A stretch of 64,000 nucleotides of DNA from Candidatus Iainarchaeum sp. (GTDB lineage: Archaea > Iainarchaeota > Iainarchaeia > Iainarchaeales > JAGVWC01). Within the stretch, counting starts at the first letter, position 1. Every line of letters begins with the position of its first letter. The notes under the pieces are model-generated. The model had not been told where the DNA came from, ran no database searches, and saw nothing but the letters and a program-made list of their open reading frames with translations. The stretch spans positions 62,001-126,000 of the forward strand of contig JAGVWC010000011.1 of NCBI GenBank assembly GCA_018304465.1. Reading direction: 5' to 3'. The position numbers and the translations under genes were made by a program. This document shows, in pieces, positions 11,182-62,174 of the stretch.

Positions 11182-12159
11182 TCAATTGGGAAGTGTCAAA
11201 ACCCGGTTTGTGCGAAGAATCTGGTATTTGGTGGCTTTCACTGAAAAATTGAAATCCATGCTTCGAAACGATTGAATAGACCGGTTAAAATCAAGCCCGA
11301 TGTTCATGTCCACGGAACGATTGGCATCCGACCACGCGCGAAACCTTGGACCGAACGCCAAGGTGACTCCTTTGGAATGACAATTTGGCCCGCTGCAAGT
11401 CAAAAAAACATTGAAATCCGCAGTCGTGGCATAATGACCTGACACCAGCGTCTGACTCAATGTGCATTTTTGACACGAGTCCACCAGAAAATTCACCGAA
11501 AAAAACGGCAGCGGATTCGCGGGGTTAAAACTGTCCGTCGGGCACGAAGAACCGTTGCAGCGCAAAAAATTAAAATCCGCGGAAGGGTCTTTCACCAAAA
11601 TATTGATGTCCGTTCGCCGGATCGAATTGGGGTCAAACATTGACGAACACGCCTGGGAACCGCCCCCGTCCACGGTCGACTGTGCAAGGGAAAGCTGGTA
11701 GCGCGCGCACACGGGCTCGAGCAAAAACGACGGCGAATCCAGAATCGATCCCCAATTCAAATCCGTCGCCGCGTTCATGTCGATCAAAATTTCCGTGCGA
11801 TTCAAATCGTCGTGCAATCCAAGATAAAAAACACGGTACCCCTGAACCGAATCAAAGTACCCTGAAAACACCTGTTGATTTAACGGCAGTTCCTGCGACA
11901 AAATAATCCGGTGGGGATTGATCAAAATATACGAAAACGGAAGCCCTTGTTCCACGATTTTTTTTCTCCCTCCGTTCAAATCCAACTGAACCAGCGAACG
12001 TTCGATATCGCGATACACTTTTCCAAGCTCCCGAAGCCTTGTTAATTCAGGCTGCGGTTCCAAATCCCGCGTAGACGACCGGATTTCCGAATTCAAGGTC
12101 AAGATCGCCAAAACGAACAGCAACGCGATCAACGTAAACAAGATTCCCCGCTGGTTCAC
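11182..12159 (-). CDS. Membrane-anchored pilin-like surface protein, last gene of the pilin operon
   Basis: About 325 residues, no recognised enzyme domain. The start is GTG 12159 inside the stop of the upstream gene (GTGA overlap), preceded by GGGTGG, which indicates translational coupling; the open frame to 12255 is a shadow. The N-terminus NQRGILFTLIALLFVLAIL is a short basic/polar leader plus one hydrophobic helix, like archaeal pilin-type proteins. The ectodomain has several cysteine pairs (CQKC, CSGPNC, CNGSSC). Function is inferred only from position in the class III signal-peptide cluster. Confidence 0.75.
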   Translation of the reverse strand: MNQRGILFTLIALLFVLAILTLNSEIRSSTRDLEPQPELTRLRELGKVYRDIERSLVQLDLNGGRKKIVEQGLPFSYILINPHRIILSQELPLNQQVFSGYFDSVQGYRVFYLGLHDDLNRTEILIDMNAATDLNWGSILDSPSFLLEPVCARYQLSLAQSTVDGGGSQACSSMFDPNSIRRTDINILVKDPSADFNFLRCNGSSCPTDSFNPANPLPFFSVNFLVDSCQKCTLSQTLVSGHYATTADFNVFLTCSGPNCHSKGVTLAFGPRFRAWSDANRSVDMNIGLDFNRSIQSFRSMDFNFSVKATKYQILRTNRVLTLPN

Positions 12160-26580: not shown

Positions 26581-26651
26581 TCTGCCAAAAGTTATATTTT
26601 TCTTGTTCGTTTTTATTTCAGCGGATAAAGATATCTTCCCACAACGTTGCG
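26581..26651 (-). repeat. scpA 3'-end repeat, copy 1
   Basis: Matches the 75-bp end of scpA from the CCAA edge through the ATCTTCCCA core. Read on the minus strand it decodes as WEDIFIR, stop, NKNEQEK, so the ScpA C-terminal motif is still visible but carries a nonsense change. Same orientation as scpA. Confidence 0.85.
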
Positions 26652-26674
26652 TTTATTACAAAAAAAGAATTTTT

Positions 26675-27191: not shown

Positions 27192-27225
27192 CGTTTTGTT
27201 CGAGCGGATGAAAATATCTTCCCAA
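27192..27225 (-). repeat. scpA 3'-end repeat, copy 2 (core only)
   Basis: The core GCGGATGAAAATATCTTCCC and flanks decode on the minus strand as IWEDIFIRSNKTQEN. Homology to scpA is limited to about 34 bp. A short inverted match to the outer part of the repeat (GGCAAGAACAATT) occurs at 27132-27144. Confidence 0.75.
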
Positions 27226-27268
27226 ATTAACGAGTCTATTTTTAAAAGAAATTTTGTTTGGATCGGTT

Positions 27269-28420: not shown

Positions 28421-28488
28421 GCTATCAGAATGAATTTTCCTACTATTTATGGATTGCGTTATGAATCGCTCATTACGCTTCCGTGTCC

Positions 28489-28520
28489 CATTTCACGAAG
28501 AAGTCTTCCCGCGACCGCAC
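28489..28520 (-). repeat. Possible degenerate scpA 3'-end repeat, copy 3
   Basis: GAAGTCTTCCCGCGACCGC resembles the core and outer part of the copy at 56109 (GATGTCTTCCCACGACCGC). The rest has diverged, so this copy is tentative. Confidence 0.4.
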
Positions 28521-32526: not shown

Positions 32527-32601
32527 CCGGCCAAAAGTCTTATTTTTCCTGTTCGTTTTTATTCCAGTGGATGAAAATATCTTCCCAGAATTGTTCATGC
32601 C
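32527..32601 (-). repeat. scpA 3'-end repeat, copy 4 (full length)
   Basis: A full 75-bp match to the end of scpA. On the minus strand it decodes as EQFWEDIFIHWNKNEQEK followed by TAA at the same place as in scpA. Many differences from scpA are synonymous or conservative, as if it came from a diverged scpA gene rather than from random drift. Confidence 0.9.
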
Positions 32602-33002: not shown

Positions 33003-33097
33003 TCAGCCAATCGGCTTATTTTTCCTGCTGATTTTTATTCTTTTGATTTTTGTCAGCCAAGAAACGTTTTTTGTTGTTAGAACTTGCTCTTGTCACA
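33003..33097 (-). repeat. scpA 3'-end repeat, copy 5 (rearranged)
   Basis: The stop-codon half (TCAGCCAATCGGCTTATTTT and the following bases, 33003-33040) matches scpA. The WEDIFI core is missing, and a diverged outer part (GTTAGAACTTGCTCTTG) appears after a 35-bp spacer. It looks like a recombined or decayed copy. Confidence 0.65.
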
Positions 33098-34272: not shown

Positions 34273-34347
34273 CTGCTAATCAGCTTTTTTCCTGATTTTT
34301 GTTCCAGCGAATAAAGATGTCTTCCCAAAACAAGAACACGCTGCACG
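34273..34347 (-). repeat. scpA 3'-end repeat, copy 6
   Basis: On the minus strand it decodes as SCSVFLFWEDIFIRWNKN followed by QEKS and a stop. The outer part differs from scpA but shares CCAAAACAAGAACACGCTG with the copy at 55448, so it belongs to a second subfamily. Confidence 0.85.
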
Positions 34348-34423
34348 ACTTTTTCGACAAAAAAATAATTAGAATGGCCGAATTTGGTGCCGTAATTTGA
34401 ATAGTTTTTTATACAAGTCGCCG

Positions 34424-34925: not shown

Positions 34926-34945
34926 GTTAGAAATTGTTCTTGCCA
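34926..34945 (-). repeat. scpA 3'-end repeat, copy 7 (remnant of the outer edge)
   Basis: GAAATTGTTCTTGCCA matches the outer edge of the repeat (scpA residues QEQF); the core is missing. The flanking GTTAGAA is shared with copy 5. Confidence 0.45.
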
Positions 34946-35573: not shown

Positions 35574-35647
35574 CAGCCAAACGTCTTATTTTTCCTGTTG
35601 ATTTTTATTCCAGCGAATAAAGATATCTTCCCAGAATTGTTCTTGCC
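35573..35647 (-). repeat. scpA 3'-end repeat, resident copy inside scpA
   Basis: This is the genuine 3' end of scpA plus about 13 bp beyond the stop. It encodes QEQFWEDIFIRWNKNQQEK and serves as the reference for all other copies. The outer boundary beyond the stop is (T/A)CAGCCAA on the plus strand. Confidence 0.9.
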
Positions 35648-54392: not shown

Positions 54393-55154
54393 ATGCTGTA
54401 CGTGATCGGAATCGGACTTTCGCCGCAACAAATGACGCTTGAAGCAGTGGCAGCTGTCAAAAAAAGCCGGAAAATATACCTTGAAAACTATACCAGCGCG
54501 TTTGCCAGTGGAACCCGCAAACAATTGGAAAAAATCCTGCACAAAAAAATAACGGTTTTGACGCGAAAACAAGTCGAAGAAGAATTCACGCCGGTTCTAT
54601 CGCTTGCGCGCAAAAAAACCGTCGCATTACTGGTCTACGGAAACCCCTTGTTTGCCACCACCCACATCCAGTTGATCCTCGACGCGCAAGCCAAGCGAAC
54701 CCCTATTACCGTCATTCCGGGAATTTCCATTGTGAATTATGTCGGCGCCACCGGACTTGACGCCTACAAATTCGGCCGCACTGCAACCGTCGTGTTCCAA
54801 GAACCCAATTATTCGCCTCACTCGTTTTTTGACATCATCGAAAAAAACAGCCAAGCGGGACTACACTCGCTGTGCCTGCTTGATATTCGCACGGATGAAA
54901 ACCGTTTCATGACCGTTACCGAGGCCATCGCGATACTGCGAAAAATAGCGGATTTTCGAAACTCCGATTTGATCCAAAACACAGTGCTAATTGGGTTGTA
55001 TGGTGTCGGCGGCAAAAACCAGCGGATCCGAATCGAAAACCCTTCGATCACCCGAAAACCCATCGAAGCGTATCCCCAATCCCTGATCGTTTGCGGCAAA
55101 CTCAATCCCAAAGAACAAGAAGCCATTGAATTGTTTCGGGGGAAAAAACGATGA
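54393..55154 (+). CDS. dph5: Diphthine synthase
   Basis: SAM-dependent methyltransferase that modifies the diphthamide precursor on elongation factor 2, a trait of archaea and eukaryotes. About 253 residues of tetrapyrrole-methylase fold: LYVIGIGLSPQQMTLEAVAA, LLVYGNPLFATTHIQLILDA, PGISIVNYVGATGLDAYKFG. ATG 54393 matches the family start and is 27 bp from GGTTTAATAAC (54360-54370), so 54378 is unlikely. The 3' end overlaps DUF357 by 4 bp. Confidence 0.93.
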   Translation: MLYVIGIGLSPQQMTLEAVAAVKKSRKIYLENYTSAFASGTRKQLEKILHKKITVLTRKQVEEEFTPVLSLARKKTVALLVYGNPLFATTHIQLILDAQAKRTPITVIPGISIVNYVGATGLDAYKFGRTATVVFQEPNYSPHSFFDIIEKNSQAGLHSLCLLDIRTDENRFMTVTEAIAILRKIADFRNSDLIQNTVLIGLYGVGGKNQRIRIENPSITRKPIEAYPQSLIVCGKLNPKEQEAIELFRGKKR

Positions 55155-55438
55155 ACGAAACACTTCGGCACAAAACCAAAAAATACCGGCTATTAACCGA
55201 AGAAGCATTGCGAGTCATCCAAGTCTCAAAACCGCTTTCAACCAAAGAAAAAAAAATCGCGGCCGACTTTTTGCAAATGACGCGAAATTATTTTTCCGAC
55301 GGACAACACTTCGAACATCAAAAAGAATTCGCTACGGCACTTGCGGCCTATTCGTATGCACACGCATGGCTGGACGCAGGAGTACGCGCCGGATTATTCG
55401 ACGCAAAAGGAAACGACCGGTTGTTCACGCTACAATAA
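55151..55438 (+). CDS. DUF357 protein
   Basis: 95 residues, an archaeal helical protein with the pattern YFSDGQHFEHQKEFATALAA and AYSYAHAWLDAGVRAGLF. Role unknown. It is translationally coupled to dph5 (ATGA). The second repeat block begins about 10 bp after its stop. Confidence 0.88.
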   Translation: MNETLRHKTKKYRLLTEEALRVIQVSKPLSTKEKKIAADFLQMTRNYFSDGQHFEHQKEFATALAAYSYAHAWLDAGVRAGLFDAKGNDRLFTLQ

Positions 55439-55447
55439 AAAAAGATT

Positions 55448-55486
55448 GGGGGGATGAAAATATCTTCCCAAAACAAGAACACGCTG
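55448..55486 (-). repeat. scpA 3'-end repeat, copy 8
   Basis: On the minus strand it decodes as SVFLFWEDIFIP and then diverges. It shares CCAAAACAAGAACACGCTG with copy 6, 21 kb away. It marks the left edge of the second repeat block, right after the dph5-DUF357 operon. Confidence 0.8.
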
Positions 55487-55523
55487 TTTGATTTTCAGGC
55501 GGAAAAAATGCTGGAATTGGCTG

Positions 55524-55781
55524 TCAAAACTGGGTATACACTTTTTTCCGGTGTTCGATCCGCAGGACAATTATTTTTTTTGTTGCTGGAAATTTTTGGA
55601 CAATTACCCGATAATGCCCCACACGAACCTTTTGGTATGGCGTTCCTTTTACGGCCTCGAGAAAAACGGAATCTTCTTTTTCAAATAATTCCATCTTGTC
55701 GAGAATTCGACGAGTAAGTTCTTTTTCAAGGGACTCAAGATCTTTCTTTGCGCGGTTCGTCCAAACAAGTGTGAAAGGCAT
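55524..55781 (-). CDS. RelE/ParE-family toxin
   Basis: 85 residues: LVWTNRAKKDLESLEKELTR, VKGTPYQKVRVGHYRVIVQK and VLRIEHRKKVYTQF at the end, where the His and Tyr match the RelE-type C-terminus. It directly follows the antitoxin gene with no gap. It lies between repeat copies 8 and 9. Confidence 0.85.
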   Translation of the reverse strand: MPFTLVWTNRAKKDLESLEKELTRRILDKMELFEKEDSVFLEAVKGTPYQKVRVGHYRVIVQKFPATKKIIVLRIEHRKKVYTQF

Positions 55782-56030
55782 TCATAAACCCAGTTCTTTG
55801 CGTAATTGCTTGGAAGAAAACACGCGTCCGTGCCGCAGGTCTTTTTTAGCCTCTTCAATCCCCCTCAAGGTTTCCGAACTCAATTCGAACTCGGCCTCTT
55901 CATCTTCACGTATGCGACTTAATAATTTCTCAATCACATCCGCGTAGGTTTCACGCTCGTTTTCCTTGAATGCATCCAAATCCTTCTTTACTTTAACCGG
56001 GATCTGAATAGTCGAATTATCAGCCATCAT
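55782..56030 (-). CDS. Antitoxin with N-terminal ribbon-helix-helix-like region
   Basis: 82 residues. STIQIPVKVKKDLDAFKENE resembles the DNA-binding strand-helix of archaeal VapB/RelB-type antitoxins; the acidic C-terminal half would wrap the toxin. An AT-rich box (AATATACTATAAGG, about 56039-56052) precedes it. MADNS at 56027 is an alternative start. Confidence 0.78.
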   Translation of the reverse strand: MMADNSTIQIPVKVKKDLDAFKENERETYADVIEKLLSRIREDEEAEFELSSETLRGIEEAKKDLRHGRVFSSKQLRKELGL

Positions 56031-56108
56031 AACACCTTATAGTATATTACAAACAACTATAATAAAAGACGTTTCTTTCGATGATTGTGGAAATATCTTT
56101 TTGCCGCA

Positions 56109-56161
56109 GGTTTTGTTCCAGCGGATGAAGATGTCTTCCCACGACCGCTCCACGCTGCACG
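56109..56161 (-). repeat. scpA 3'-end repeat, copy 9
   Basis: On the minus strand it decodes as PCSVERSWEDIFIRWNKT; the WEDIFIRWNK core is intact although many codons differ from scpA (GAC, ATC, TTC, AAC variants). The outer part resembles copy 6 (CACGCTGCACG). Confidence 0.85.
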
Positions 56162-56256
56162 GTTTATCGACGGTTTTCTAAAGAAGACTGGCCGAGAACT
56201 TCGCCCGTTTTGAATTCGCCGGAACCTTTTTTAATTATAGGAACTCCGTATATACA

Positions 56257-57438
56257 ATGCCCGCACGAAATCGTCGCATACAACGAGTCCAAGCGGAAAC
56301 CAATCGTGTGATGGACTCTGCCTTTGGAAATCCGCAGCACCGAGGAATAACACGTAGGCAACGCCTGGGAGAACTGCGCAACCAAGCCGCCCGTTATGCA
56401 AAACATGCGCCCGTCCAATTTGCAGCCCGACAAATCGTTAAACACCTCAGCCGCGCGCAAACTACGTTTGAAGGCCATTCAAAGATCACTCCTATCCAAA
56501 GCGCTTCTGTTTTTTACGGGGGTCAAAACATCCGGTTCGGAAAAGCGATTCGGGAACACTTTCGAAAACGCAGGATCACCGCTCGATCCATGCAGCTAGA
56601 TTCAAAACGATCTCCCACCAGCACAGTTGAGAATCGGCGCATCGACGCATTATCACGAGCAAACGCGGTTGTATTTGCAGCGAATGGTCCCGCCAGCAAG
56701 CTTGATGGCCCCGTAGACCGGATTGTGAATAGTGTGGAGCGGCGATACGGAAAAAAAAGCGGTACTCGTCTTGCGCTGATGTACGGCATTACACCGCAAG
56801 CAGTCCGAGAAGTGCTATCCCTAAACTCCAAACGCATGCATGAATTCACACGGCGGACTTTTCAAGCGGTACACGGATGCAAAACCATCCAAGTCCGGTC
56901 TTCCAGCGGGACCAACATGACTTTTTCGATTACTCCCCGACATCGCTGGGTTCAAGATAACGCTATTCTCTCTAAAAACTATTGGGGAAACCTGCCCGCA
57001 GGAGAAGTATTCACCGCGCCCGCTTCCGCCAACGGAAACCTTGTGATCGATGCCGTGATGAACAACGTTGGCGACTGTCATAAAACGCCCATCACTGTGC
57101 AAATCCGAAACGGTCGCGCGATCCCTCAAACCGCACGGTGCAAGAACCCGCGACTGCTCAGAAAGTTTCTTGCCCAAATCCATGCGGAACCCAACGCGGA
57201 CCGCATCGGCGAACTTGGTTTAGGGACCAATGTGGCGGTGACCAAACTCACCGGTAACGATTTGGTGGATGAAAAGCATGTGGGCGTGCACGTGGCGTTT
57301 GGAGACCCCGAAGGCGCAGACACGGGGGCCACATGGACGACGGCAGAAGGCACTCATAACGATGCGATTCTGCGAAAACCCAGCATATTTGTGGATGGGC
57401 GCTGCATCATGCGAAACGGAAAAAGTCTACTGATGTAA
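56257..57438 (+). CDS. Fusion of a basic N-terminal region to an M29-like aminopeptidase
   Basis: 393 residues. The first ~180 are strongly basic (MPARNRRIQRVQAETNRV) with a possible HTH (ALMYGITPQAVREVL). From about residue 210 the sequence follows archaeal M29-type leucyl aminopeptidases: VRSSSGTNMTFSITPRHRWV, NLPAGEVFTAPASANGNLVI, IGELGLGTNVAVTK, DEKHVGVHVAFGDPEGAD, THNDAILRKPSIFVDGRCIM. The Glu, Glu, His and HxD metal ligands all appear to be present, so it may be active. The usual N-terminal half of M29 is missing or replaced. Flanked by repeats on both sides. Confidence 0.75.
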   Translation: MPARNRRIQRVQAETNRVMDSAFGNPQHRGITRRQRLGELRNQAARYAKHAPVQFAARQIVKHLSRAQTTFEGHSKITPIQSASVFYGGQNIRFGKAIREHFRKRRITARSMQLDSKRSPTSTVENRRIDALSRANAVVFAANGPASKLDGPVDRIVNSVERRYGKKSGTRLALMYGITPQAVREVLSLNSKRMHEFTRRTFQAVHGCKTIQVRSSSGTNMTFSITPRHRWVQDNAILSKNYWGNLPAGEVFTAPASANGNLVIDAVMNNVGDCHKTPITVQIRNGRAIPQTARCKNPRLLRKFLAQIHAEPNADRIGELGLGTNVAVTKLTGNDLVDEKHVGVHVAFGDPEGADTGATWTTAEGTHNDAILRKPSIFVDGRCIMRNGKSLLM

Positions 57439-57452
57439 AACTCATGGCTGTC

Positions 57453-57527
57453 ACAGCCAATCAGCTTATTTTTCCTACTCGTTTTTATTCCAGCGAATAA
57501 AGATATCTTCCCAGAATTGTTCTTGCC
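57453..57527 (-). repeat. scpA 3'-end repeat, copy 10 (full length, nearly identical to scpA)
   Basis: A 75-bp match to the scpA end with 8 differences, all in the stop-codon half; the 46 bp from TTTTTATTCCAG to CTTGCC are identical although the two sites are 22 kb apart. On the minus strand it decodes as QEQFWEDIFIRWNKNE and an early TAG. It starts 14 bp after the stop of the fusion gene. Confidence 0.92.
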
Positions 57528-57596
57528 TCGATGCGTTCACTTTTCCCAGTAAAAAGGTTTAAATATTTCGAATCTGTATCTAATAAAGGCCTGGAC

Positions 57597-58106
57597 ATGG
57601 GAATATACGATTCGCTTCCGCAACTCGATCTGGACATGGATTCCGCCAAAAAATACGCGGCGATTGTCGCAGCCATTGTGGTGGTCGGATGCCTGGCATT
57701 TGTGCTGTTCACCCAAAACAACACCGCGTTTAGTATTTTTTCGTTTCTCAATGGAAACCCGATCGACGCCAAATTCGACGGACCCATCAACCTTAGCATC
57801 GGATCCGACGGCTTGCCGGTAAAAACCAGTACGAATCTTGTGGTAACATTAACCAACCCGTCCAATCAACCCGCACGCGACGTATCGATTCTGGTGCGCG
57901 CGTCCGATGACCAAGCCCTGATCATTTATCCGTCTTCACGCGTCATCCCCGTGCTTGACAAAACGCGTAACGCCCAATTCACGATCCGACCCAACCCCGT
58001 GCAACCCGCTTTGTCCGGAACCTATCTTATTGAAATACAGGCGTTTGTCGGCGACAAAGAATACTCCAAACAAATCGAATTACAGGTCAAAACCAACGAA
58101 CCGTGA
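57597..58106 (+). CDS. Membrane-anchored protein with CARDB-like domain
   Basis: About 169 residues from ATG 57597 (MGIYDSLPQLDLDMD). One membrane helix (YAAIVAAIVVVGCLAFVLF) is followed by an extracellular Ig-like/CARDB-type domain (TSTNLVVTLTNPSNQPARDV, SGTYLIEIQAFVGDKEYSKQ). Adhesion or scaffold role inferred. A TATA-like GTTTAAATATTTC lies about 57558-57570, right of repeat copy 10. The open frame from 57531 is not needed. Confidence 0.7.
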   Translation: MGIYDSLPQLDLDMDSAKKYAAIVAAIVVVGCLAFVLFTQNNTAFSIFSFLNGNPIDAKFDGPINLSIGSDGLPVKTSTNLVVTLTNPSNQPARDVSILVRASDDQALIIYPSSRVIPVLDKTRNAQFTIRPNPVQPALSGTYLIEIQAFVGDKEYSKQIELQVKTNEP

Positions 58107-61097: not shown

Positions 61098-62174
61098 ATG
61101 AAAGAAAAAATCCGGGACTTGTTCCGTCAAACCCCCGCCACGACCGTAATCATCCGAAACACCCGCCAATCCCTCGATCCGGCGTTTCAATATTTTTCAG
61201 GACTCGACCCCAAACGGTTTGACAACAACATTTTGCTCCTTGAAAAAAACAAACCGCATCCCACGCTTTTGGTTCACTCGATGGAATTCGACGAAGACCT
61301 CAAACGATTACCTCTACACGTGGTCATTATCGACCGCCAAAAAAAAATGGACCTTTTTTTGTCCCAGCGATTCAAAAACAAAATCGTCGGCCTCAATTAT
61401 GACACCTATCCCTATCAACGCGTCTTGTATTTGCGCAAACACTTTCACCCCAAACGACTCGTGAACATTTCTTCGGGTTTGGCGACTGTTCGCGCTGAAA
61501 AAACCCCGCAAGAAATCAAAAAAATCAAAACCGCCTGCAAAATCACGAGCGAAATCCTCGAACACGCGCCGGAATTCGTCAAAAAAATCCGAACCGAAAA
61601 AGAACTCGCCGAAAAACTCGAAAACGAGGCATTCAAAACCGTTGACGAACTCGCGTACCCCACGATTGTTGCTTTTGGAAAAAACGCGGGAATCCCGCAT
61701 CATAATCCGGCGCCGCAAAAAATCGGAAAAAATAATTTTCTGCTGATTGATTTTGGCGTGAAGTACGACGGATACTGCGCGGACCTCACGCGGACTTTTT
61801 TTAGGGGAAAACCAACCGAAGAACAGCAATGGCAATACTGGGTCGTCTCTCAATCCAAAAAACGCGCCTTTGAACTTGCAAAACCCGGCGCAATCGCGTC
61901 GGATCTCTTCGAAGCCGCCGACGACGTGATTTTTTCCGGTTTCAAAACCCATATTCCGCACGCGCTCGGACACGGCATCGGACTCGAAGTCCACGATTAT
62001 CCCACGCGCATGGCGACCAAAGAAACATGGAAACTCGCGCCAAACCAAGTCGTGACGCTTGAACCCGCGATTTACACCCGCTCATTCGGCATCCGGATCG
62101 AAGACGACATTCGAATCACCAAAACAGGCGCCGAGTACCTGACCCGTGCACCAGAAGAACTCCACACCCTCTAA
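61098..62174 (+). CDS. M24 family Xaa-Pro aminopeptidase
   Basis: 358 residues. The N-terminal creatinase-like domain is followed by the pita-bread fold. Metal ligands: both Asp in FGVKYDGYCADLTRTFF, His in PHALGHGIGLEVHDYP, Glu in VVTLEPAIYTRS and Glu in GIRIEDDIRITKTG. It removes N-terminal residues before proline. Co-directional with the upstream 62-residue gene. Confidence 0.92.
   Translation: MKEKIRDLFRQTPATTVIIRNTRQSLDPAFQYFSGLDPKRFDNNILLLEKNKPHPTLLVHSMEFDEDLKRLPLHVVIIDRQKKMDLFLSQRFKNKIVGLNYDTYPYQRVLYLRKHFHPKRLVNISSGLATVRAEKTPQEIKKIKTACKITSEILEHAPEFVKKIRTEKELAEKLENEAFKTVDELAYPTIVAFGKNAGIPHHNPAPQKIGKNNFLLIDFGVKYDGYCADLTRTFFRGKPTEEQQWQYWVVSQSKKRAFELAKPGAIASDLFEAADDVIFSGFKTHIPHALGHGIGLEVHDYPTRMATKETWKLAPNQVVTLEPAIYTRSFGIRIEDDIRITKTGAEYLTRAPEELHTL

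Follow-up and report, generated by a model that had tools for sequence, protein, structure and literature searches.

The 64,000-nt stretch analysed here (the window; positions 62001–126000 of contig C7 in an archaeal genome of 1.25 Mb in 15 contigs) carries a block of about 2 kb between the dph5-DUF357 gene pair on its left and a CARDB-like gene on its right which, judged by gene order in relatives, is an insertion. The block is bounded and divided by copies of a short module that, by its coding signature, is derived from the translated 3′ end of scpA. We lean, with modest confidence, towards the view that cassettes carrying such scpA-derived modules and no integrase are mobilised in trans by a recombinase, probably of the tyrosine type, whose gene lies elsewhere. 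The host is an uncultured DPANN archaeon, and the named relatives of its ScpA come from metagenome-assembled genomes of Candidatus Forterrea and Diapherotrites (Iainarchaeota). Positions given without a contig or locus label refer to the window.

Relatives were compared at two levels, within the family against a single genome of the sister genus G001, and across the order against 74 other genomes. DUF357 is present in 48 of 53 relatives, and the CARDB-like gene follows it directly in 15 of the 29 relatives' loci retrieved, at spacings that range from a 3-nt overlap to an 83-nt gap. In G001 the gap is 30 nt and the CARDB match has E = 2.5e-33; adjacency was also read from coordinates in G015, G017 and G034. 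With the block removed, the corresponding gap here would be about 84 nt. A preliminary description of this DNA had proposed the comparison and had named conservation of the block in all relatives, or an assembly error, as outcomes that would speak against a mobile block. The block is not so conserved: the two genes adjoin without it in the 15 loci, that of G001 among them, and in three further genomes, providing the empty site expected of an element inserted at a protein-gene 3′ end, and because DUF357 and the CARDB gene adjoin where the block is absent, we take the block to be an insertion. Misassembly is unlikely, since the genes on either side are those that synteny with relatives predicts, and their order and orientation agree with it as well. 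Several other genera have unrelated genes between DUF357 and CARDB (an antiporter with a P-type ATPase, a radical SAM gene, glnA and others; L169, L170, L172, L173, L174 and L175). These inserts carry no terminal repeats and were rejected as members of the same system; the occupation of the junction by unrelated genes does indicate that the spot tolerates insertions generally.

Module copies were located by genome-wide searches and an nhmmer profile, and those in the block match far beyond chance. On the + strand a module consists of a left arm P (CAGCCAAACGTCTTATTTTTCCTGTTCG) and a core (TTTTTATTCCAGCGAATAAAGATATCTTCCCA), followed by one of two right arms: B′ (GAATTGTTCTTGCC) in copies A, B, C and D, or P′, which is about 65 bp long and ends near TGGCYG, in copies E, F, G, H, I and L. 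The left neighbour, DUF357 (55151–55438, + strand; PF04010, E = 4e-22), has its stop codon at 55438. Module F (55452–55540, +; E = 3.3e-18, and by sequence) forms the left boundary; it comprises the right half of the core and P′ and lacks the left arm, its homology beginning in the core spacer (...^GGATGAAAATATCTTCCC). The preliminary description had repeats resuming ten bases after DUF357; repeats do resume there, at a distance closer to 12–14 bases, with homology detectable from 55450–55452. Module G (56099–56214, +; core and P′; E = 5.4e-27), which the preliminary description did not spell out, is internal and divides the block into two cassettes, and Module B (57454–57527, +; P, core and the scpA-like arm B′; E = 6e-20) is the right boundary. 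The repeat-bounded block described earlier is confirmed. Beyond it lies the CARDB-like gene (57531–58106, +; likely start 57597), the neighbour of DUF357 in relatives.

The cassette between F and G encodes the RelE/antitoxin pair that had been described from the sequence. The 85-aa toxin (55524–55781, −) belongs to the ParE/RelE superfamily (PF05016, E = 7.6e-9; phrog_1213, E = 2.7e-10), and the adjoining 82-aa partner (55782–56030, −) resembles VapB-type antitoxins weakly and below the cut-off (PF02697, E = 2.7e-4). The cassette between G and B holds a 393-aa gene (56257–57438, +) described earlier as a fusion of a helix-turn-helix (HTH) domain with an M29 protease. Its M29 part stands (PF02073, residues 207–350, E = 3.1e-13), while no N-terminal HTH was confirmed in Pfam or PHROGs. 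The M29 metallopeptidase half occurs here without the family's usual N-terminal half and has a basic region joined to it instead, which may be a new domain arrangement; a single-sequence fold of the protein was unusable (mean pLDDT, predicted local distance difference test, 35).

The modules are about 75–125 bp long, also given as 74–125 bp. The 74-bp P-core-B′ form is sharp at both ends, with CAGCCAA on the left in 8 copies and TTGCC on the right in A–D, and the P-core-P′ form is bordered by a matching inverted pair, CRGCCA and TGGCYG. Within the core lies a dyad, the inverted repeat TTTTTATTC-CAGC-GAATAAAGA, which pairs at 8 of 9 positions in A, B and O, a level reached by about 0.1% of random 26-mers from the window. 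Two hybrid modules break within the dyad spacer: Module M (33004–33040, +; left arm only; E = 1.2e-5) stops at TTTTTATTC^, and Module F starts at GGATGAAAATATC.

On the opposite strand, the sequence of core and B′ translates as WQEQFWEDIFI, which is the conserved ScpA end of this order; in an alignment of ScpA, relatives keep WQEEFF(G)EIFI, the stretch that B′ and core specify, and the tail beyond it varies. Across 11 core copies there are 37 minority letters, and 27 of them occupy third positions in the frame WEDIFIRWNKN (binomial p about 1e-6 when shared ancestry is ignored; p = 0.06 in a column-wise test alone). Because core and B′ encode the conserved ScpA end and variation in the core is codon-biased, the module is derived from the translated scpA 3′ end; the third-position bias further indicates that many of the displaced copies were once translated scpA ends under coding constraint. 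The resident scpA end is itself Module A (35574–35647, +; the gene lies on the − strand, and the module covers its last 20 codons, the stop and 12 nt beyond). The reading frame is intact and the modules are direct repeats, an arrangement in which a repeat overlaps the 3′ end of the target gene and restores it. The scpA array begins right behind the stop codon, and its first cassette gene, of 205 aa, may be read from the scpA transcript, since it starts 12–13 nt after that stop. In the sister genome only 115 nt of contig remain beyond scpA. G021 has a second fragment resembling scpA, which lies at a contig end and is not interpretable.

This coding ancestry bears on whether the modules could be non-autonomous transposon-like repeats, such as miniature inverted-repeat transposable elements or repetitive extragenic palindromes, that accumulated between genes and have genes between them by coincidence. 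The repeats are discrete, and the CRGCCA/TGGCYG ends at both outer limits of the P-core-P′ form (CAGCCA...TGGCTG) are of the short inverted kind that such repeats would have. We nonetheless regard this explanation as highly improbable, as the module partly consists of the native, conserved coding sequence of ScpA and shows coding-type variation, no target-site duplication was seen, and the genes in the block are insertions.

Compared with the scpA 3′ end (35574–35647), Module B is identical over exactly 46 of 46 consecutive bases, which are its last 46, and all 7 differences lie in the other 28 bases (hypergeometric p = 0.0007). The 46-base identity and the confinement of changes to one half of the right-hand copy had both been noted before and are reproduced here. 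The identity stops at TTGCC on the scpA-proximal side. Module B is thus a mosaic, with a core and B′ identical to scpA and a divergent P arm, which supports movement or gene conversion involving scpA; of the two processes proposed earlier, the pattern speaks for one or the other. Conversion or duplication alone could be the whole explanation if the modules were old dispersed repeats of the scpA end and homologous recombination with, or conversion by, scpA had made B near-identical with no dedicated recombinase. The limitation of the identity to one module part, with a mosaic breakpoint, fits this explanation, as does the finding that hisG, too, has a duplicated 3′ end (98% over 96 nt) on both sides of an insert, which points to duplication as a general process. 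It leaves unexplained, however, the presence of modules around accessory genes at five loci, the absence of the block from relatives and the sharp ends common to independent copies, and we consider it improbable as the sole process.

The preliminary description had inferred that the system extends beyond scpA, and the genome-wide searches agree, with 16 modules at five loci on two contigs. These are the scpA array (26.6–35.6 kb), the DUF357 block, C15:12.7–15.0 kb (carrying HicBA, a 118-aa gene and a methyltransferase), C15:104.7 kb (a single module adjoining a 629-aa lipoprotein gene) and C7:10.0–10.7 kb behind hisG (carrying a toxin-antitoxin pair and a lipoprotein). All modules lie on the + strand of their contigs, a uniformity that is suggestive only, as the loci number five and the contigs two. 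Pairs of neighbouring small genes for type II toxins and antitoxins recur in the cargo, with ParE/RelE toxins in the block, the scpA array and the hisG insert and HicA on C15, and a related cassette gene (124 and 118 aa; 68% amino acid and 74% nucleotide identity) lies between modules at two loci. No module was found in the 74 other genomes of the order; a 93-nt module query gave short, weak matches only, the best of them (G009) within a gene. Module core patterns had no match in other genome contigs (own record excluded) or in viral contigs, and an Rfam search returned none.

Within the scpA array, Module C (32528–32601, +; P-core-B′) lies 3 kb from scpA, and its B′ stops at the base where those of A, B and D also stop. 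Module E (34275–34397, +; E = 2.7e-24) is P-core-P′; the distal part contains Module J (26582–26655, +; P-core; E = 4.3e-19), and Module K (27193–27226, +; E = 1.9e-5) has a degenerate core. N (34930–34944, +), recognised by sequence only, is what is left of a B′ arm (GAAATTGTTCTTGCC); it lies between the genes for RelE and the 205-aa protein. A possible degenerate module (TCTTCCCGCGACCGC) at 28484–28518, between genes of 383 and 763 aa, scored E = 0.43 and would divide a 5-kb cassette.

Such an array could also arise if full-size archaeal elements, viruses or plasmids with their own integrases, had hit the scpA 3′ end repeatedly and decayed to cargo, the other loci being insertions at secondary attB sites. 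The P-core-P′ junctions of E, H and I are the product expected of tandem accretion, and precedent exists in the literature (PMC8371274). Yet a scan of cargo proteins recognised nothing of viral or plasmid type, and no viral relatives of cassette proteins were found; the cassettes measure 0.5–5 kb and repeatedly hold just one to three genes, and the scpA-type B′ arms away from scpA share one exact end. Tandem integration is a possibility that we hold to be unlikely.

We instead favour recombination in trans. Under this proposal, the block would be a mobile island of two cassettes that entered between DUF357 and the gene ancestrally next to it; each cassette would bring accessory genes and an attachment module taken from the translated scpA 3′ end, and would lack a recombinase. 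The modules would be recombination sites, perhaps still active, for a site-specific recombinase, most likely a tyrosine recombinase, supplied in trans. scpA would be the home target, where an incoming cassette brings a new gene end and pushes the older one away, so that ScpA would stay intact; the DUF357, C15 and hisG blocks would be secondary insertions of scpA-type cassette units. All PF00589 matches in the genome lie outside the module arrays, and no element carries an integrase of its own. Candidates are two integrase genes outside the arrays on module-bearing contigs (C15:2593–4077 and C7:680–2038), which when scanned match XerA/XerC-type models far below the cut-off, and the host Xer recombinase gene xerA on contig C6, which is interrupted by an intein. 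No PF00239 match, indicative of a serine recombinase, occurs in the genome.

As to where exchange takes place, the positions at which M and F break in the spacer, together with the mosaic Module B, point to a crossover in the core. The B′ arms of B, C and D, which lie away from scpA and have one end base in common, point to units that include the scpA end as far as TTGCC and join there. These lines pull in different directions.

Several observations weigh against a trans-acting recombinase. Neither integrase gene has a module beside it, and no direct evidence ties a recombinase to the modules. A simple core crossover would not be expected to leave the sharp-ended B′ copies away from scpA (B, C and D), which call for either a crossover at TTGCC or conversion. 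Several copies have a weak core dyad (4/9 in G, 5/9 in K), and the dyad is partly forced by coding sequence. The duplicated hisG 3′ end falls outside what the cassette model predicts, and since no second module-bearing genome was found, no case of cassette movement was seen directly.

The hisG 3′ end occurs twice (L073:9702–9947 and 11263–11373, contig C7), on either side of a 1.3-kb insert that contains the scpA-type module, the toxin-antitoxin pair and the lipoprotein gene; the duplication shows a 119-nt internal deletion, and the second copy ends at the stop codon. In xerA, the intein sits at the catalytic region and consists of an intein splicing domain and a LAGLIDADG domain (L075:7318–9426, −). 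On contig C13, a broken integrase in two overlapping frames (L076:5037–7381), next to tRNA-Ile and a LAGLIDADG-type open reading frame, is probably a decayed tRNA-integrated element. A family of 356-aa basic, all-helical proteins, almost absent from relatives, has three copies in the genome (33155–34225 in the window, L043:5119–6185 and L176:2369–3571), of which one belongs to the scpA array and another lies close to an integrase gene; its single-sequence structure prediction was unusable (mean pLDDT 53).

Integrons and Xer modules are the main settings in which cassette shuffling is known. If true, a separate DPANN route built on the end of a chromosome-segregation gene would mean that an attachment site at a gene end can turn into a module for cassettes dispersed over the genome, and would account for the build-up of toxin-antitoxin and other accessory genes in a small genome; the modules supply an exact test set for finding the responsible recombinase. 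The more ambitious formulation, an integron-independent archaeal cassette system with a module from the translated scpA 3′ end, one whole module per cassette, insertion at the module end and a trans-acting recombinase shuffling toxin-antitoxin and other cassettes among scpA and secondary loci, is one we put forward as speculative and rather doubtful.

Among known systems, staphylococcal cassette chromosome (SCC) elements insert at the rlmH/orfX 3′ end by means of their own serine recombinases. They share with the present system repeated insertion at the 3′ end of one housekeeping gene and direct repeats, but they encode serine recombinases (ccr), of which the PF00239 search found none here. 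Archaeal elements in protein-gene 3′ ends, with tandem arrays and integrase loss, have been described, among them thaumarchaeal integrated mobile genetic elements (PMC6563490, PMC8371274). They have in common with the scpA modules the housekeeping-gene target, a new end and stop codon supplied by the element, tandem arrays and an integrase that can be missing; here, in contrast, the units are cassette-sized, the att-like module occurs at four other loci, and scpA-type arms lie away from scpA. Xer-mobilised dif (pdif) modules of Acinetobacter plasmids are likewise small, recombinase-less units with toxin-antitoxin and accessory genes between short recombination sites, served in trans by a chromosomal recombinase (PMC6449649, PMC13141974). 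Unlike these, the present module is 74–125 bp long, scpA-derived and of one orientation, and it matches no canonical archaeal dif, a pattern (28 bp, 11-6-11) that was absent genome-wide at up to 3 mismatches, a diverged dif lying outside its reach. Integron cassette arrays without an integrase (CALIN, clusters of attC sites lacking integron-integrases), archaeal ones included (PMC9668308), resemble the scpA arrays in being rich in toxin-antitoxin pairs, with one module per cassette and modules above 60 bp with sharp ends. They differ in that several cassettes here are multi-gene and the modules show no significant single-strand folding; attC-like folding was rejected for 12 sequences folded as DNA (z between 0.03 and −1.7, none unusual). 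No integron integrase was identified in the scan of the two integrases, whose matches to XerA/XerC-type models fell far below the cut-off. In sum, the scpA-module system appears partly like gene-end elements, partly like dif modules and partly like integron arrays, and is best called a variant of gene-end integration working as a cassette system.
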